Assembly (NCBI GenBank): GCA_015661465.1
Contig: DQVZ01000186.1
Span: 1 to 23,815 of the forward strand
DNA length: 23,815 nt
From: Aquifex aeolicus
GTDB lineage: Bacteria; Aquificota; Aquificia; Aquificales; Aquificaceae
Reading direction: 5' to 3'
This document shows positions 2,569 to 18,184 of this stretch, piece after piece. Positions within the stretch are counted from its first letter, which is position 1. Every line of letters begins with the position of its first letter. The position numbers and the translations under genes are program-made. The notes beneath the pieces were generated by a model that was not told the DNA's origin, searched no databases, and worked only from the letters and a program-made list of their open reading frames with translations.

Positions 2569-4291
2569 CGCTTTAACTACGGATAAAGAAGAAGCATCTA
2601 AGATTTATTACGAGATAGCTTTAAAGGCGCTTCATTTAAACGATTATGAGGATGCCCTTGTTTTCTTTTCAAAGGCTTTATCTTTAGCTCCTAGTAGTAA
2701 ATACGGTGAACTCTCTTACCTTTATTACGGTTTGACTTACGCTCTATATTCCTATCACTTAGGCAATAAAGAAGGAATTTTTTCCGCAATAGGATACTTG
2801 AATCAATACACTTTCTATTATAAAAAGCCCGAATACCTTATACTCCAACGGGAATTTTTGGGAGACTCATACCTTTTAGTAGCTTGGTATGAAGACGCGA
2901 TGAACATATATGCTAACCTATACGGGGATACGAAAAAAAAGAAATACCTTATAAAATATGCATTCATTTCAGCTCTTTACGGAGATTACACAGGATATAA
3001 CGAGCTTAGAAGGCTAAAAAGTCTTCCAAAAGATTATTTATACCTCTATCACCTTGCTCTCGGAATATACAGTATTGATTTTGGAAGAAATAAAGAAGCT
3101 CTGCAACATTTAACGAAAGCATTAGAACTTAATCCTTTTCTTAGATACGATGTTCACTTCAATTACTATACAGGTCTGGCTTATTACAAGAATGGAAAAA
3201 TTTGGCGTTCTATGCTTTTCTTCTTAAGGGCTAAGGACCTGGACAAGTTTGGACTTTACAGAACAATGCTAAATTACTACCTTACACAGGTTTATCTGGC
3301 AACTAACAATTTCTCCGAAGCTTACGAGATTTACAAGGAGATATTTAAGGAAATTTTTTACAACTCTATTTACAAAGTTATCTACTCCAATTACTGGCTA
3401 AACGAGGAATTTCTAAAACGATACGAGGATTTTAAGTTTTACTACGATGTAATTTTACAGATAGGATGGCTCTCTACCGGGAAGAAAATTGTGGGCTATT
3501 CTCTATTGGCTCTCTACAACAAAGCTCTTAAAAGTAAAAATCTCTCTGAAGAAGAAAAAGTTTTCATGGAAACAATTAAATTTGAAAACACAGATTTTGT
3601 TATGAATAAGGAACTCTTTTCTTTTAAAAAACAATTGGATGTTTTAAATCGAAAGCTTTCTCTAATGGATGTTGAAGAAAGTGCAGAATTTATAGTAAAT
3701 CTGTATAAGACCCATAGGAATAACTTCTTAACGATTTTTTACAAACCCGATTCCCTCTTTGTTCTCGCGCGTGCTCTTGTATATACAGGAGATAAGGAAT
3801 TTTTAAAAATAGCTAAACTTCTACCGAACACTCCAGAACTTAAATTTCTTAAAGCTAAATACTGGTTTTCTAAGGGTAGAAAAGAAGTAGCCAAAAGATT
3901 CTTAAAAGATTCCATAAACAATTTAGAAGGAATAGATAAATTGGAAGCTATGTTGCTGCTGTATTACCTTATTGAAAATCCCTATATAGATGAAGTCTTG
4001 AAGTTAGCTAGGGAGTATAAGGAACTTGAAAATTATTTCCCTTACATGTATAGACTTGCGGGAGATATTTACTATGACAAGGGTATGTATAGAAAGGCTT
4101 TATTAATGTATAAGGAATTTTTACAGAATTATAAGGCAAAAGATGATATTTACGGTGCTACACTGGTTAAGATGGGGGTTTTGGCAGAGGTATTACAGGA
4201 CAAGAAAACAGTTGATTTTGTAGTAAAAGAAGCAAAAGGCTTTAAAAACCTATGGAGTGAAGCTATATTAACATTATGGGGAGGCAGCTGA
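2504..4291 (+). CDS. Secreted tetratricopeptide-repeat protein
   Basis: A 595-residue protein with an N-terminal signal peptide or anchor (MNLLTRTIILLAVIVLSAFSF) followed almost entirely by paired helices. TPR-type repeats are clearest at about residues 28-62 (ALHLNDYEDALVFFSKALSLAP), about 190-215 (RNKEALQHLTKALELNPF), about 220-245, and again near the C-terminus (DIYYDKGMYRKALLMYKEFL). Aromatic residues are unusually frequent. TPR proteins act as scaffolds or chaperones; this one would act in the periplasm or at the membrane. Its start lies 65 bp inside the preceding FliK-like gene, and its stop TGA shares sequence with the flgB ribosome site region, so it is almost certainly co-transcribed with the flagellar genes. 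Partner unknown; a flagellar assembly role is inference from position. Confidence 0.75.
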   Translation: MNLLTRTIILLAVIVLSAFSFNALTTDKEEASKIYYEIALKALHLNDYEDALVFFSKALSLAPSSKYGELSYLYYGLTYALYSYHLGNKEGIFSAIGYLNQYTFYYKKPEYLILQREFLGDSYLLVAWYEDAMNIYANLYGDTKKKKYLIKYAFISALYGDYTGYNELRRLKSLPKDYLYLYHLALGIYSIDFGRNKEALQHLTKALELNPFLRYDVHFNYYTGLAYYKNGKIWRSMLFFLRAKDLDKFGLYRTMLNYYLTQVYLATNNFSEAYEIYKEIFKEIFYNSIYKVIYSNYWLNEEFLKRYEDFKFYYDVILQIGWLSTGKKIVGYSLLALYNKALKSKNLSEEEKVFMETIKFENTDFVMNKELFSFKKQLDVLNRKLSLMDVEESAEFIVNLYKTHRNNFLTIFYKPDSLFVLARALVYTGDKEFLKIAKLLPNTPELKFLKAKYWFSKGRKEVAKRFLKDSINNLEGIDKLEAMLLLYYLIENPYIDEVLKLAREYKELENYFPYMYRLAGDIYYDKGMYRKALLMYKEFLQNYKAKDDIYGATLVKMGVLAEVLQDKKTVDFVVKEAKGFKNLWSEAILTLWGGS

Positions 4292-4666
4292 ATGGATATC
4301 TTTAGGGGGGTAAATGAATTAAAGTACTATCTTGATTACACTTGGAAAAGACATAAGGTTCTTTTGAGTAATCTCGCAAATGCCGACACACCAAATTACA
4401 GAAGAAGGGATTTAGTTTTTAAAGTAGAAGAACCGAATGTTCCTTTGAAAACCACTAAAGAAAAACACATAAACAACTTTAGAAAGTTTGAGGTCAAGAT
4501 AGTAGAGGATAAAAGTAGTATTAAGGGAAATGACAGAAACAATGTAAGTATAGAAAGAGAAATTGCTCAGCTGGTAAAAAATAGGTTGGCTTATGAAATC
4601 TACTTGAAGTTTTCTACAGGCAGCTTAAATACCCTGAATAGGGTTATTAAAGGGAGGGCTGAATGA
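4292..4666 (+). CDS. flgB: Flagellar proximal rod protein FlgB
   Basis: 124 residues, the usual FlgB size. The N-terminal motif LSNLANADTPNYRRRDLVF is the rod/hook-family signature (N-x-A-N-x-x-T-P-x-Y-x-R), and the C-terminal stretch about residues 85-115 is amphipathic helix that pairs with the N-terminal helix. FlgB forms the innermost rod ring on the FliE adaptor. A strong GGGGAGG at 4278-4284 precedes the ATG. The start follows the stop of the TPR gene with no gap, and the end overlaps flgC by 4 bp (ATGA). Confidence 0.93.
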   Translation: MDIFRGVNELKYYLDYTWKRHKVLLSNLANADTPNYRRRDLVFKVEEPNVPLKTTKEKHINNFRKFEVKIVEDKSSIKGNDRNNVSIEREIAQLVKNRLAYEIYLKFSTGSLNTLNRVIKGRAE

Positions 4667-12154: not shown

Positions 12155-12574
12155 ATGTGGGGAAGAATACTTAAATTAATATGCGAAGAGCTGGGTAATA
12201 TGAATTTATTCCTTTTAGAAGCTGATAAGGATCTCAAATGGTACGGTGTTCCGGTTAAGGAGATATGCGATAAAGTTGGCTTTGAAGCAACAAATTCCGA
12301 AATAGCCCAGACCGTAAAGGCTAATTTACAAGAAGTTCAAGGAGAAGGATGGATAGTTTACGTAGATCCATTTAACAACTTTGCGGATATATATGAATCG
12401 GATAAACCCAGATATGGGAACAGATGGAATCCAGAGAAACCCTTTGACATAAGTGAGGTTCGTTTCAGAATAGGTTTCTTCGATTCGAAAGAAGAAGCTT
12501 ATGACTTTTTCCTAAAAATATCAAAGAAGATAAAAGAACTTTACAACCTCAAATTTGATGTGATTTACACTTAA
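12155..12574 (+). CDS. Protein of unknown function upstream of the oxidoreductase operon
   Basis: 139 residues, soluble, mixed alpha/beta, no signal peptide, two cysteines near the N-terminal third. I do not recognise a family. The segment about 50-100 is rich in Trp, Tyr, Asn and Pro (GEGWIVYVDPFNNFADIYES), suggesting a compact strand-rich core. The C-terminus is a Lys-rich helix pair. No Shine-Dalgarno precedes ATG 12155; AATAAT stands 8 nt upstream. It is followed by 94 bp with a separate promoter for the oxidoreductase genes, so it may be independently expressed. A link to the oxidoreductase is only positional. Confidence 0.65.
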   Translation: MWGRILKLICEELGNMNLFLLEADKDLKWYGVPVKEICDKVGFEATNSEIAQTVKANLQEVQGEGWIVYVDPFNNFADIYESDKPRYGNRWNPEKPFDISEVRFRIGFFDSKEEAYDFFLKISKKIKELYNLKFDVIYT

Positions 12575-12595
12575 AACTCTGTTTTGTTTTTGACC

Positions 12596-12623
12596 TTGCT
12601 CATACTATCTTTTTTCTTATATT
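12596..12623 (+). promoter_or_regulatory. Probable promoter of the oxidoreductase operon
   Basis: TTGCTC (12596-12601), a 16 bp spacer and TATATT (12618-12623) precede the delta gene. The transcript would begin near 12630 with a leader of about 40 nt ending in GTGGAGGTC. A TTGACC at 12590 is an alternative -35 but is spaced too far. Confidence 0.4.
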
Positions 12624-12668
12624 GTATTTTTACTAAACGCATACAAAATTAAGACGTGGAGGTCATGT

Positions 12669-13388
12669 ATGGCTGAAAGGAATCCTATTCAACCTGGACC
12701 TGAAGGATACATACCTAATCCTGCATCTTTCCAAGGATGTGATTTACCACCGCCTGGTAAAGCTCTTCTTTACGGTGAGATTGTAGATGAAGAAACCGCT
12801 ATGAGAGAAGCGGCAAAGGCATTACTCACAAGGAAAAATCCCACCATATTCCCGGGTCCACTGGTTTTATGGGGATGGAATGCAGATGCAATGGAAAAAG
12901 CTAAGGCCGTTTTAGAACTCGCTATGGAAATACCCAACTGCAGAATAATCCCTATGCCGGACTACAGACCCAAGTATCCAAAAATAGACCCTGAAGCGGA
13001 AATAAATCCGAATCACCCCAATCTTACGATACTTCACAATAGAATTGAAGTTTGTATATTTGTAGGTGTTCACTGTCACTACGCTAACCTCTCTCTCAGA
13101 ATGATTAGAGCAGGTACAAACTGTTATACCATAGCTCTTTGCGGTGAAATGGGCCACGAGGATGCTATGGTTTCATTAAGAGATGTACATGCGGATGAAA
13201 TAAGAAGATTCAGAGATGTTCTCGTAGAAGTTAGAAAGGAAATGGGAATAGAATGGGAACCCAAACTACCACCGGAAAACCCATCCCTGCCCAAAGAAGA
13301 GTGGGTCAAGGTATCTCCTCTGGACTTCGGAGAGTATGCATACCTTCTTATTCCCAGAAGAGGTGAAATTGTAGAAGAGAGTGAGTAA
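12669..13388 (+). CDS. 2-oxoacid:ferredoxin oxidoreductase, delta (PorD/ForD-type accessory) subunit
   Basis: 239 residues. First gene of a five-gene set whose order (delta, alpha, beta, gamma, ferredoxin) matches the five-subunit oxoacid oxidoreductases described in Hydrogenobacter. After a Pro/Gly-rich N-terminus, residues about 45-175 show an alternating helix/strand layout: AAKALLTRKNPTIFPGPLVL, later NLTILHNRIEVCIFVGVHCHYANLSL, then a Cys-rich NCYTIALCGEMGHEDA. That layout, particularly VCIF-VG-h-h-YA and the later hp/h-DA, resembles the epsilon subunit of archaeal CO dehydrogenase/acetyl-CoA synthase (CdhB). The match is by eye. The Cys and His residues (Cys129, His135, Cys136, His137, Cys152, Cys158, His163) could bind metal. 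ATG 12669 follows GGAGGTC; an out-of-frame ATG 4 nt earlier opens only three codons. Confidence 0.72.
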   Translation: MAERNPIQPGPEGYIPNPASFQGCDLPPPGKALLYGEIVDEETAMREAAKALLTRKNPTIFPGPLVLWGWNADAMEKAKAVLELAMEIPNCRIIPMPDYRPKYPKIDPEAEINPNHPNLTILHNRIEVCIFVGVHCHYANLSLRMIRAGTNCYTIALCGEMGHEDAMVSLRDVHADEIRRFRDVLVEVRKEMGIEWEPKLPPENPSLPKEEWVKVSPLDFGEYAYLLIPRRGEIVEESE

Positions 13389-13409
13389 TTAACTTTTAGG
13401 AGGTGTGGT

Positions 13410-14579
13410 ATGCCTGAGCAGAGAGTTGTTGAGCCAGAATATTTAATTTTAGAAGCTCCCAGGGAGAGAAAATTTATAACAGGTTCTCAGGCTTTTGCAG
13501 AAGCGGTAAAGAGAGCTAACGTTGACGTTGCTATAGCTTACCCAATTACTCCCCAATCCGAGACAATGCACCTCGTTGGAGACCTTTATGCGCAAGGATA
13601 TGTTAAGGATTACTATAGAGCAGAAGAAGAATACGGAGCAATGTCTGCTATTGCCGGAGCGGTAAGAGGTGGAGCAAGAGCCTTTACCGCAACGTCAGGT
13701 CCCGGACTACTCAGAGGACTTGAAGCTATAGCATCATGGCCTGGACATAGAATTCCCGCAGTATTAGGAATAATGACAAGGGTTGTAAACGCTCCCTTAT
13801 CTATCCAGCCTGATAACGTTGAAATAGCTTACCTGCTAAACGCAGGTTTAATAGTTCTTCACGCTGAAAATCAACAGGACGTTTTTGACTTCACACTGGC
13901 AGGTTTTGTAATTTCCGAAAAGGTAGACGTTTACCTTCCTGTAGTTGTTGCTACAGAGGGATTCTTCGTAACACACGCTAAGGGGTATGTAGATCTTCCT
14001 CCCGAAGATATGAAACTACCTCCGAGAGACCCATACAAAGCTCCGGTTCCTCCGACGGACTGTGAAATTCCACCTGCGAGAATTCAGAGGGATGCTCCGG
14101 TTCAAAAGTCAAATTTTATGAGCTATCTGATTCACGCAGTATGGCAACAGGAAGTTTGGTCTGCTAATAGAAGAGCGGCTAAGTGGATAAAACACTATCT
14201 CGGGGGTCTTATAGAAGTTGTTAATCCGGACGCAGAAGTATTTATAGTTGCTTCCGGATGTGCTGCGGCTCAAGGTAGAGAAGCTCAAAGATATGCTACT
14301 ATGGAAGGCTTAAATGTAGGTCTTGTAAAGATAAAATCTCTCAGACCGTTTCCGACAAATGAACTTAGGGAAGTTCTCAAAAACGCAAAAGCTGTAATAG
14401 TTCCCGAACACAACATCGTAGGATGGTTGGCAAAAGAAGTCAAAGCCGCAATACCCAACAGCGGAATAGTTGTAGATGGTCCCAGAGTTTACGGTGGTAT
14501 GACACTACCGGTTGAACTTATCATGGACGAAATTTATAAAGCCTTTGGTATTAAGAAGGAAAAGAAGACCGTTGTTTAA
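13410..14579 (+). CDS. 2-oxoacid:ferredoxin oxidoreductase, alpha subunit
   Basis: 389 residues. It holds the pyrimidine-binding half of the thiamine diphosphate site and part of the 2-oxoacid pocket. AIAYPITPQSETMH (about 41-54) is the family signature. YYRAEEEYGAMSAIAGAVRGGARAFTATSGPGLLRG (about 68-102, in pieces) follows the pyruvate:ferredoxin oxidoreductase pattern, and MTRVVNAPLSIQPDN is the next conserved block. The C-terminal half is the domain II region (VFIVASGCAAAQGREA, then LRPFPTNELREVL). Whether the substrate is pyruvate or 2-oxoglutarate cannot be settled by reading. AGGAGGTGTGGT precedes the ATG, 21 bp after the delta stop. Confidence 0.9.
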   Translation: MPEQRVVEPEYLILEAPRERKFITGSQAFAEAVKRANVDVAIAYPITPQSETMHLVGDLYAQGYVKDYYRAEEEYGAMSAIAGAVRGGARAFTATSGPGLLRGLEAIASWPGHRIPAVLGIMTRVVNAPLSIQPDNVEIAYLLNAGLIVLHAENQQDVFDFTLAGFVISEKVDVYLPVVVATEGFFVTHAKGYVDLPPEDMKLPPRDPYKAPVPPTDCEIPPARIQRDAPVQKSNFMSYLIHAVWQQEVWSANRRAAKWIKHYLGGLIEVVNPDAEVFIVASGCAAAQGREAQRYATMEGLNVGLVKIKSLRPFPTNELREVLKNAKAVIVPEHNIVGWLAKEVKAAIPNSGIVVDGPRVYGGMTLPVELIMDEIYKAFGIKKEKKTVV

Positions 14580-14600
14580 AAATCTTAAGGAGGTGTAGCT

Positions 14601-15470
14601 ATGGGATTGGAATATGTAAGAATTTCTCCAGGTTTTGAAAAATACATGCCCAGGGACTACGTAGACCTGGTTAAGTACGGCCCATTCGGAAAACAAGTAG
14701 ACGTAATGCAGATGGGCCAATTTAAAGAACTCGTAGAAGAACACCCGATGTGTGCCGGATGTTACATGGCTTACTTTATAAGGGTGTTCTACGCAGCTCT
14801 TCCCAATCCGGAAGACACAATAGTTCTCGGGACAGCAGGATGTGCAAGACTCGCATTATCCCAAGCGGCAGTACCTTTCATATACGGAAACTACGGTGAT
14901 ACAAACGCAGTTGCTTCAGGACTCAAAAGAGCCCTTTCTATAAGATTCCCTGACAAAGTTAAGGACGTTGTAGTAATAGCCGGGGACGGTGGTCTCATAG
15001 ATATCGGTTTCGGTATGACAATGCACTCATGGTTCAGAAGAGAAAAATTCACAACTATAATGGTTGACAACGAAGTATACGGAAACACAGGCGGACAAGA
15101 AAGTGGAATGTCTCCTAAAGGAATTCAACTCAAAATGGCACCCCTAGGAAAGAAATTTGACAAGATTAACGCAGTAGAACTCGCTAAAACTGCGGGATGT
15201 GTTTACGTTGCGAGAATATCACCTACAAATCCCAAGAGGATAGCTAAGACAATAAGAAGGGCTATTCTCGCTGCAAGACATTTCGGACCTACATTTATCC
15301 ACGCTTACACATCCTGTAATATCGAATACTCAATTCCTACCAGGGAGGTTCTCGCTGATGCAAGAAAGAGAGAAAAGCAAGACTTCAAGTTCTATGAATG
15401 GATGACCGATGAAGTAAAAGAATTCTTCGAGGAGCTCGAAAGGAAAGAAAAGCAGGAGGTTAAAAAATGA
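14601..15470 (+). CDS. 2-oxoacid:ferredoxin oxidoreductase, beta subunit
   Basis: 289 residues. Carries the thiamine diphosphate and proximal [4Fe-4S] site. The diphosphate/Mg motif is VVIAGDGGLIDIG (about 124-136) with VDNEVYGNTGGQ (about 155-166). The four cluster cysteines expected of the family are present: Cys51 and Cys54 (MCAGC), Cys81 (AGCARL) and Cys239 (YTSCN). Enzyme and partner subunits together interconvert a 2-oxoacid with its acyl-CoA plus CO2, with reduced ferredoxin, a reaction run reductively in CO2-fixing Aquificales. AAGGAGGTGTAGCT precedes the ATG. The end overlaps the gamma start by 4 bp. Confidence 0.93.
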   Translation: MGLEYVRISPGFEKYMPRDYVDLVKYGPFGKQVDVMQMGQFKELVEEHPMCAGCYMAYFIRVFYAALPNPEDTIVLGTAGCARLALSQAAVPFIYGNYGDTNAVASGLKRALSIRFPDKVKDVVVIAGDGGLIDIGFGMTMHSWFRREKFTTIMVDNEVYGNTGGQESGMSPKGIQLKMAPLGKKFDKINAVELAKTAGCVYVARISPTNPKRIAKTIRRAILAARHFGPTFIHAYTSCNIEYSIPTREVLADARKREKQDFKFYEWMTDEVKEFFEELERKEKQEVKK

Positions 15471-16156
15471 AAAGATATAACATAAGAATTGCCGGTGTTG
15501 GTGGGCAGGGGGTTGTTACCTCTGCCCACATTTTAGGTAATGCTATGGCTGCTGCTGGAAAGTACGCTTCTCTTGTTCCTTTCTTCGGTTCTGAGAAGAG
15601 AATGGCTCCCGTAGAAGCTTACGTTAGAGTTTCTGACCAACCTATTTACGAAGTTGGTGAAGTTGTTTATCCAAACGTTATAATGATTTATCACCCTCAG
15701 GTTATTACTCACGGTAAATCCTATACAATGCCTTTCTACTATGGTCTAAAAGAGAACGGTATGGTTATTATTAACTCCGATGTTGATATAATTCCCGACG
15801 AAGATAAGAAAGTTCTCGAGGATTTAAACGCGAGGATTTATATGATTCCGGCAACCCAAATAGCAAGAGATATAGCAGGAACAGAACTCGCTACAAACAT
15901 GGCTATGATAGGACTCTTCTTCGGAATTACCAGATTGGTAAACCTCGAACATATAGAAAAGGCACTCATAGAAAGATTCTTAGGTGGTACATTCGTAGCT
16001 TCAGGTGGTACAACGGCTCTCGACTCTGCAATTGAAAAGAAATTCAAGAAAAAACAAGAACTTCTTGCAAAGAATATGGAAGTTATAAAGTACACAATAA
16101 AACTTGCTGAAGAAAACGGCTGGGTAGAAACGGAAACAGAAGAGGTGAAAACCTGA
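15467..16156 (+). CDS. 2-oxoacid:ferredoxin oxidoreductase, gamma subunit
   Basis: 229 residues. The N-terminus NIRIAGVGGQGVVTSAHILGNA (read as RIAGVGGQGV plus helix) is the gamma/domain III signature, followed by a conserved GSEKRMAPVEAYVRVSDQPI. The stretch DSAIEKKFKKK and a charged C-terminal tail complete it. In the complex this domain contacts CoA and the other catalytic subunits. ATG 15467 overlaps the beta stop as ATGA, and AGGAGG lies 8 nt upstream. Confidence 0.93.
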   Translation: MKRYNIRIAGVGGQGVVTSAHILGNAMAAAGKYASLVPFFGSEKRMAPVEAYVRVSDQPIYEVGEVVYPNVIMIYHPQVITHGKSYTMPFYYGLKENGMVIINSDVDIIPDEDKKVLEDLNARIYMIPATQIARDIAGTELATNMAMIGLFFGITRLVNLEHIEKALIERFLGGTFVASGGTTALDSAIEKKFKKKQELLAKNMEVIKYTIKLAEENGWVETETEEVKT

Positions 16157-16170
16157 GGAGGTAAACATAG

Positions 16171-16407
16171 ATGTATTTTGTGGCTGATGTTAAGGAAAAC
16201 GAATGTGCTAAGTATAACTGTAAACAGTGTGTTCTCTTCTGTCCTGAACCAAACTGTTTGAACTTTAAATCCAGTACTAATAGTGCTTGGGTCTGGTACG
16301 ACAGATGTAAAGGTTGTGAAATTTGTGTTTATGTTTGTTCAGACCTATTGAAAAGACACTGTATAGAAATGGTAATGGTTACACCCAAGGCTACGGCCAA
16401 ATCTTAA
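16171..16407 (+). CDS. 2-oxoacid:ferredoxin oxidoreductase, ferredoxin-like epsilon subunit
   Basis: 78 residues with ten cysteines. Cys12, Cys17, Cys20 and Cys24 (NCKQCVLFCP) and Cys46, Cys49, Cys52 and Cys56 (CKGCEICVYVC) form two [4Fe-4S] sets; Cys29 and Cys64 are extra. The first set has a 4-residue rather than 2-residue first gap, and the second lacks the usual Pro after its last Cys. It should pass electrons between the beta-subunit cluster and soluble ferredoxin. TGAGGAGGTAAACATAG between the gamma stop and ATG provides the ribosome site. Last gene of the operon; the following sequence is T-rich without a clear hairpin. Confidence 0.88.
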   Translation: MYFVADVKENECAKYNCKQCVLFCPEPNCLNFKSSTNSAWVWYDRCKGCEICVYVCSDLLKRHCIEMVMVTPKATAKS

Positions 16408-16503: not shown

Positions 16504-16836
16504 ATGACTTTTAGCAACGAAGAAGTCGAAAAGTTGAAAAAACTTGCGGAGGAAATTAAAGATTTAATGGTAGAACCGAATATAGAGATAGATGTTTGTT
16601 TTGACGATGTAGCTAAAGACGAAGGTTGTGAAGTAGGTATTACTCCTGGATACACTCCAAAGTACCCTTATATAAAGGTGATATACAAAGCGGGAGATGG
16701 TGATGTATTTGAAAAGAAAATAGAAATACCTCCGGAAATTCTAAAGAAGGATGTTAAAGAAATTAAAGAGTTCTTAACCTTTGCTATAGAGCAATTTATG
16801 GAAGAAATAGACAGTGTAGAATACGGAGGAGAGTAA
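16504..16836 (+). CDS. Small acidic protein of unknown function
   Basis: 110 residues, strongly acidic and lysine-rich, without signal peptide or membrane segment. Predicted layout is helix (about 4-24), strands carrying Cys32 and Cys40 (IDVCFDDVAKDEGCEVGI), a Tyr/Pro-rich turn (PGYTPKYPYIKVIYK), and two C-terminal helices. I do not recognise the family. GGGAGGTGG gives a good ribosome site. It follows the oxidoreductase operon by 96 bp with its own -10 and converges on the reverse gyrase remnant, whose drifting frame now overlaps its 3' end. Confidence 0.7.
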   Translation: MTFSNEEVEKLKKLAEEIKDLMVEPNIEIDVCFDDVAKDEGCEVGITPGYTPKYPYIKVIYKAGDGDVFEKKIEIPPEILKKDVKEIKEFLTFAIEQFMEEIDSVEYGGE

Positions 16837-16838
16837 AA

Positions 16839-17090
16839 CTAATGTGCTCTCTCCTGCTCTTTCATCTAGGTTTTTAATCTTATGTACTTCTTTTAAAACT
16901 TCTATATAATCTATTTCACCGCTTTCTATTTTGTCCATAGCTTCTTCAAGTTGTCTCGTAAGCTCTTCGCTTGCCCAATATGGGAACTTCTCTACAAGAA
17001 ACTCGTAAACTTTCCTTCCCAAATCAGTCTGTCAGAGCTTATTACTCCCCCGCAGTTGGGACAACCTCTCTATATCAACTGTAAAGTCAT
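16839..17090 (-). pseudogene. Reverse gyrase remnant (N- and C-terminal fragments fused by a large deletion)
   Basis: Read from ATG 17090 the frame gives MTLQLI, a TAG, then RGCPNCGGVISSDRL, which is the first zinc-finger motif at the N-terminus of reverse gyrases. A few codons later, in the next frame, TDLGRKVYEFLVEKFPYW and ELTRQLEEAMDKIESGEIDY appear; this is the pattern at the extreme C-terminus of the topoisomerase IA half (compare 'PT-x-x-G-x-x-V-Y' and 'TR-x-LE-x-x-MDK-x-E-x-GE'). About 1000 codons between them are missing. Past residue NLDER the open frame runs on into the neighbouring gene (to 16774), but the +1 frame reads KEQERAH and stops at 16839, just clear of that gene: probably the original end. 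Nonsense codon, deletion and two frame changes make function implausible. Confidence 0.75.
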
Positions 17091-17098
17091 AATACTAC

Positions 17099-17365
17099 TT
17101 ATTTAATTCTCTTGAAAATAAAAATCCTCACCTTTTTGGTTTCGAGGTCTTCTTTCAGGGCAACTATATGGGTATACTCTTTAAGTCTTTCCCCCTTACT
17201 TACCTCTCCCTTATTCTTATTTAAGTAATAGATAGTGAAGTCTTTGAAATCTTCTTCTTTGAAGTCAGAAATGGGCCTGATTTTCATATCAATATCGGAA
17301 GTTCTATAGCCGTATATAAGTCCCAATAGAAAGTTAAAAACCTTATCCCCCTTGAGGAATTGCAT
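17099..17365 (-). CDS. Protein of unknown function ahead of the reverse gyrase remnant
   Basis: 88 residues if started at ATG 17365 (91 from ATG 17374). Basic, no signal peptide, no cysteines. The N-terminus is helical and hydrophobic (FNFLLGLIYGY), followed by a charged middle and a final strand pair (VALKEDLETKKVRIFIFKR). No family recognised. The promoter TTGACA-17 bp-GACAAT ends 7 nt before ATG 17365 and overlaps ATG 17374, so 17365 is the likely start on a leaderless transcript. Its TAA lies 8 bp from the start of the reverse gyrase remnant, which was presumably once the second gene of this operon. Confidence 0.65.
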   Translation of the reverse strand: MQFLKGDKVFNFLLGLIYGYRTSDIDMKIRPISDFKEEDFKDFTIYYLNKNKGEVSKGERLKEYTHIVALKEDLETKKVRIFIFKRIK

Positions 17366-17372
17366 AAAACTC

Positions 17373-17401
17373 ATTGTCAGAAAGTTTTAAAGCTTTGTCA
17401 A
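17373..17401 (-). promoter_or_regulatory. Promoter of the 17365 gene
   Basis: Minus strand TTGACA (17401-17396), 17 bp spacer, GACAAT (17378-17373), then 7 nt to ATG. This is the only clear two-box promoter in the window with a consensus -35. Confidence 0.6.
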
Positions 17402-17434: not shown

Positions 17435-18184
17435 TCAACTGATTTTTTGGAAAATTTCTTCGGGTATTTCAAAGTTTGCTATTACCTGTTGGACGTCGTC
17501 TAAATCTTCCAGAGCGTTGAGGAGTTTTATTACCTTCTGGGCTATTTCTTCATCGGTAATCTGAACTGTGGAAAGGGGTTTCCAAGTGATTTGCGCCTTT
17601 TCTACGTGAACACCAGCCTTTTCAAGGTTTTCCTTTACGTCATAAAGTTCTTCAGGAACTGTATAGATTATGTGTATCTCTTCTCCGGGTTGAACATCTT
17701 CTGCTCCAGCTTCAATAGCTTTTTCAAGCAGTTCATCCTCCGATATTTCACGTGCAGGAACTTCTATATATCCTTTCCTCTCGAATAGATAAGATACACA
17801 ACCGGAAGAACCTAAATTACCACCGTATTTAGTGAATACATGTCTGATTTCGGACGTAGTTCTATTCCTATTATCGGTTGTAGCCATTACCATTACGGCT
17901 ACTCCGCCGGGAGCGTATCCTTCGTATATAACCTCTTCAAATTGCTCTCCACCGAGTTCTCCTGCCCCCTTTTTTATAGCCCTTTCTATATTTTCAAGGG
18001 GCATATTAGCCTTCTTAGCTTGCTCTATTGCGGTTCTCAATCTCGGATTAAACTCAGGATTGGGTCCTCCCAGTCTTGTTGCTACTATTATTTCCCTTAT
18101 TAATTTGCTAAAGAGTTTACCCCTTTGTGCATCAACCTTTGCCTTCTTGTGTTTAATCTGAGCCCAGTGACTATGCCCTGCCAT
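17435..18184 (-). CDS. YebC/TACO1-family protein
   Basis: 249 residues, full family length. The N-terminus [20 protein letters not shown] (in fact AGHSHW-x-x-IKHKK) is the invariant signature; [17 protein letters not shown] and the [14 protein letters not shown] block follow, then YEGYAPGG, and [13 protein letters not shown] [16 protein letters not shown]. Family members have been described both as DNA-binding regulators and, more recently, as ribosome-associated factors that help translation of proline-rich stretches. No Shine-Dalgarno; TATATT stands 8 nt before ATG. It is divergent from the decarboxylase gene with 39 bp between start codons. Confidence 0.95.

Follow-up and report, generated by a model that had tools for sequence, protein, structure and literature searches.

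Reverse gyrase is an enzyme that winds DNA and is characteristic of organisms living in very hot water. It is regarded as the marker protein of hyperthermophiles, and two copies have been described in Aquifex aeolicus and in Hydrogenivirga, the second being closest to the reverse gyrases of Thermodesulfobacteria and probably acquired horizontally (Catchpole and Forterre, PMC6878951). Two reverse gyrases per cell are likewise found in Crenarchaeota, where TopR1 and TopR2 are described as an archaeal duplication with diverged activities (PMC6878951); no orthology between these and the bacterial types is claimed. Decay of the gene has been described as well, in the megaplasmid of Thermus thermophilus HB27, which carries a reverse gyrase pseudogene (PMC1274311).

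The DNA analysed here (hereafter the window) is a stretch of 23,815 nucleotides, contig DQVZ01000186.1 of the Aquifex aeolicus assembly GCA_015661465.1, from a genome that shares its genus with the two-copy Aquifex. The two types of reverse gyrase concerned are called RG1 and RG2, and their clades match those of the Aquifex aeolicus/Hydrogenivirga pair (PMC6878951). RG2 presumably corresponds to the second copy of that paper, to which the result of a Thermodesulfobacteria-like origin belongs; the difference is that RG2 is dead in the window. As in Thermus HB27 (PMC1274311), a truncated reverse gyrase stands where a close relative (HB8 in that case) has an intact gene. The Thermus pseudogene lies on a megaplasmid, with no second copy named in the account given of it there, whereas the genome of the window keeps another reverse gyrase and both ends of the damaged gene survive. 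Both decayed reverse gyrases and Aquifex with two copies have thus been described before, and the RG2 scar of the window is a well-supported further case. Neither this scar nor a second one, in the Hydrogenobaculum-type genome G015, is reported in the titles and abstract openings listed by searches of the open literature on reverse gyrase, Aquificales and Hydrogenobaculum.

The scar occupies positions 17090 to 16839 of the minus strand, and its parts and neighbours are collected in the table. A preliminary description, made from the letters alone, had recognised the zinc-finger start of a reverse gyrase with an in-frame TAG, followed one frame off by the extreme C-terminus of the same enzyme, and both parts of that reading hold. 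The N-terminal remnant resembles the start of RG2 of the related genome G006, with 4 nucleotide differences over its 21 codons; the ATG is at 17090 and codon 7 is TAG (17072-17070). The C-terminal part belongs to the family TIGR01054, which in a profile search of the source assembly matches 16873-17043 (minus strand) over model positions 1112-1169 with an E value of 2.5e-18 and with one TGA inside the match. Its score of 64.7 bits lies below the family cut-off of 471.7 bits, so that a working enzyme is not encoded.

Features of the RG2 locus in the window
Feature	Position	Strand	Evidence
2-oxoacid:ferredoxin oxidoreductase (por-type) operon beside the RG2 locus	12155..16407	+	delta subunit matched to family
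DN110, 110 aa, convergent with RG2	16504..16836	+	93.6% amino acid identity to G006
82-aa open frame in the scar, TTG start	16774..17022	-	TIGR01054, E 3.1e-16
RG2 C-terminal remnant, about the last 60 codons	16839..17025	-	TIGR01054 and DNA alignment
GACT common to both deletion ends	17026..17029	-	alignment to G006
RG2 N-terminal remnant, start codon and CPNC of the first zinc finger	17026..17090	-	21 codons, DNA alignment
UP91, 91 aa, directly upstream of RG2 in G006	17099..17374	-	96.7% amino acid identity to G006
yebC, other flank of the locus	17435..18184	-	NF001030, E 5.4e-109

Relative to G006, which represents the ancestral state, 3,223 bp are absent from RG2 of the window. The large loss proposed earlier is thereby borne out, with its figure of roughly 1000 codons corrected to about 1,074, and the deletion removed nearly all of both domains, helicase-like and topoisomerase. 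As 3,223 is not a multiple of three, the C-terminal piece and the N-terminal remnant are out of register by one frame, and a one-base length difference near 16866 shifts the tail out of frame again. Alignment to G006 places the ancestral stop at 16841-16839, where the KEQERAH-stop had been taken as the old end of the gene (some positions in the scar were counted by hand from alignment outputs). With three separate disabling lesions (the TAG at codon 7, the frame-shifting deletion and the one-base length change) the scar is clearly a pseudogene and not a new kind of element. As for the join, the GACTGAT-like sequence previously noted at both ends shrinks to an exact shared stretch of 4 bp, GACT. 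Microhomology is favoured but not proven, since at least four shared bases were found in 2.5% of 200,000 random joins simulated inside the intact gene.

Among 41 genomes searched, G006 is the one closest to the window in DNA sequence at this locus. Window positions 17416-17026 align to positions 399-789 of its locus L055 (contig C12) with 93.1% DNA identity and positions 17032-16400 to 4006-4638 with 90.5%, and between both aligned blocks G006 has a reverse gyrase gene that is intact over 1157 codons (L055 725-4195, 1582 bits). The flanks are colinear with C12 of G006 from UP91 through the por operon. Both fragments align to a single orthologue, which stands intact at the corresponding site of a sister genome, and this supports the preliminary reading. 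The colinearity of both flanks and both remnants with the intact RG2 of G006 supports the loss of an intact gene.

UP91 and DN110 match no NCBIfam or Pfam family over the cut-off, and both are kept in relatives; the homologue of UP91 in G001 lies far from RG2. The gene names ychF, mutL, minC, PIN and dxs, and those of the por subunits other than delta, are presumptive. The por operon adjoins RG2 in G001, G004, G005 and G006; in G001 it is inverted and stands at the opposite end. RG2 of G001, G004 and G005 adjoins the por operon and/or DN110. In their main pieces, the RG2 proteins share with that of G006 84.8% (G001), 86.1% (G003), 73.8% (G004) and 75.4% (G005) of amino acids, and a second, N-terminal piece of G004 shares 66.9%; in G003, G004 and G005 the gene is truncated where a contig ends. 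The presence of RG2 in these four genomes and in G006 makes it likely that the gene is ancestral in the genus Aquifex.

Neither the RG2 gene nor a remnant of it was found at the two flanks in G002, and no RG2 piece is listed in that genome. There each flank is on a contig of its own with other genes next to it, and homology stops approximately where the reverse gyrase frame would begin and end. A single loss shared by G002 and the window was considered: in the por region DNA identity is 95.2% between the window and G006, 91.4% between the window and G002 and 92.3% between G006 and G002, and the two loci differ in structure. This grouping and this difference make separate losses the more likely course, against which stands the RG1 tree, where G002 is weakly paired with G000, the genome of the window (support 98/48).

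A functional copy had been expected elsewhere in the same genome, and the search for it in the source assembly found another reverse gyrase, RG1, on contig C94, over residues 305-1143. These 839 codons are open, with no stop, and share 97.0% of amino acids with RG1 of G006. Between the two genomes the RG1 codons show 25 nonsynonymous and 116 synonymous differences (dN/dS about 0.05). C94 stops short of the first 304 residues, and the profile search of the source assembly (307 contigs) found no piece of them, nor any piece of RG2 other than the scar. With the genome 82% complete, an intact RG2 elsewhere in it keeps a small probability. RG1, whose frame is shown over residues 305-1143, is presumably complete and active. 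The second reverse gyrase of G006 is 46% identical to its first. In G005 and G006, RG1 has another por-type operon in its vicinity, a paralogue with 47-66% identity to the one found near RG2, and no por gene stands beside RG1 in the stretches of G001 (L059) and G010 (L139) examined.

Taking these results together, it is highly probable that an intact RG2 existed in the locus until fairly recently, that it was destroyed by the internal 3.2-kb deletion and that its loss was tolerated as RG1 was kept. The deletion probably arose by slippage or end joining at the 4-bp GACT match. The nonsense codon near the start and the one-base change near the end are further lesions. Redundancy would explain why the loss was tolerated, with the retained RG1 presumably covering the function, and decay of a redundant gene is the simplest account. 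The recent loss of one paralogue that had been suggested at first agrees with this in the gene lost, and "recent" fits the 91-93% identity to G006, which gives no date.

A different reading is that the scar marks the loss of dependence on reverse gyrase, for instance through a lower growth temperature, and not redundancy. It finds a parallel in G015, a complete single-contig chromosome of the genus g10, of Hydrogenobaculum type, whose only reverse gyrase is a similar scar. At 221581-221085 of its contig C1 (L060 7582-7086) a reverse gyrase is reduced to some 67 codons of its start and to its C-terminus, with a TAG soon after the start and additional small differences in length. The congener G022 has an intact gene at the same place, and about 2,988 bp are missing between the two ends. 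At an E value of 1e-6 only the two pieces of the scar and a single hit confined to the C-terminal half of TIGR01054 were found in G015, with no other reverse gyrase; matches of this kind, to the C-terminal half alone, are taken here to be topoisomerase I. The gene lost in G015 belongs to the RG1 clade, and its scar is an independent event in another genus, which removed the only copy. The early TAG lies in the same GATATAG context in both scars (17072-17070 of the window and near 7582 of L060), where intact relatives have a glutamate codon; this common context is probably a coincidence. For the window, lost dependence has very little probability, as RG1 is kept and constrained over the part seen, and redundancy is the preferred explanation.

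The assembly itself could be at fault, if the contig skipped an intact RG2 present in the cells, and its fragmentation into 307 contigs and the short shared stretch at the join would suit such an error. Against it stand the TAG and the one-base change, which lie away from the join, and the profile search, which gave no further RG2 piece in the source assembly. Four base pairs are also fewer than the word length of assemblers. In addition, the 82-aa open frame of the scar is, letter for letter, the representative of P0001, a 90%-identity cluster whose 3 members occur on 19 contigs of up to 44,578 bp, which speaks against an assembly accident; the contigs are known by cluster membership at 90% identity, and some may derive from the samples that yielded the window. 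An artefact is therefore scarcely credible. The database search for this frame gave 3 proteins among 4 candidates. One of them, P0002 (54 aa, 2 contigs), differs from the tail of this frame in a single residue. In another, P0003 (114 aa, on one contig of 1,343 bp), the beginning of a TPR protein runs into the scar's tail at IEVLKE, which the two have in common; it is likely an assembly chimera, a real fusion being the alternative.

The same frame, being open and having its cluster on several contigs, could also be read as a small gene at work, for instance with the 82-aa C-terminal product as a separate protein. However, in the relatives examined it is not a gene of its own: the site holds the complete RG2 in G006 and nothing in G002. 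Besides, the TTG start lies inside the former coding sequence, the frame continues beyond the old RG2 stop into a tail that is the antisense of DN110, and both enzymatic domains are gone. A working remnant is, with these observations, hardly to be believed, and the decayed RG2 remains the preferred identity of the sequence. A chance match to reverse gyrase was rejected, given the TIGR01054 E value of 2.5e-18 and the two colinear blocks to the intact gene of G006.

Relaxed selection on the C-terminal remnant is only suggested by its codons. Over the 52 codons available, the remnant and G006 differ in 6 nonsynonymous and 5 synonymous codons, an excess with respect to RG1 (Fisher p 0.010) and to eight pooled neighbouring genes (23 nonsynonymous and 190 synonymous; p 0.0008), whereas the comparison with only DN110 gives p 0.26. 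Intact RG2 also varies over this stretch, with 12 nonsynonymous and 19 synonymous codon differences between G006 and G001. Outgroups, read by eye in a small protein alignment from which the row of G010 was left out, suggest that four of the six residue differences arose on the branch of the window and one on that of G006, the sixth being ambiguous.

A family search found TIGR01054 matches over the cut-off in 61 of 64 genomes. A midpoint-rooted maximum-likelihood protein tree, built with 41 of 55 long frames chosen by the authors (two duplicates, three partial frames and nine frames from genera already included were left out), splits the RG1 and RG2 clades with support 100/99. The RG1 clade includes, among others, the Aquificaceae genera in the tree other than g1 and g5. 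The RG2 clade contains Aquifex (g1), the Aquificaceae genus g5, and G028 and G030 of another family of the order, its range being restricted to these among the genomes classed. The intact orthologue of the scar falls in the RG2 clade, and RG1 of the window's genome in the other.

By identity to the G006 pair, 24 genomes were classed (seven of g1 and 17 of g5), many from partial pieces at contig ends. Among the matches listed, both types were found in 12 (G001, G003, G005, G006, G010, G018, G042, G043, G048, G051, G052 and G054), RG1 only in five (G000, with the scar, G002, G041, G047 and G053) and RG2 only in six (G004, G044, G045, G046, G049 and G055); no reverse gyrase was seen in G050, whose listed matches are only at E values above 1e-12. 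G047 and G053 have one match each beyond those listed. Since most of these genomes are drafts, the absence of a copy is weak evidence, except where completeness is high (G055, 99%). G004 has two of the genes that lie near RG1 in other genomes, but neither the gene that follows them there nor RG1 itself occurs in the 20 kb examined, which fits loss or relocation of RG1. G003 has more reverse gyrase pieces than two genes would account for: RG2 lies on C110, C124 and C209 carry ends resembling RG1, and C122 holds a full-length match, a complete-looking copy that stands outside the classing; perhaps this reflects a strain mixture or contamination (5%).

It is possible, at somewhat less than even chances, that RG1 and RG2 are interchangeable in Aquifex and g5 and have been sorted reciprocally, some lineages dropping the acquired RG2, in the window through a deletion that can still be seen, and others the native RG1. 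If that is true, either copy alone would carry life at the highest bacterial temperatures. A lineage that has lost one copy, its two-copy sisters and the genomes with RG2 only offer natural comparisons for the purpose of the second copy, and the scar of G015 is the matching case, in which the only copy went.
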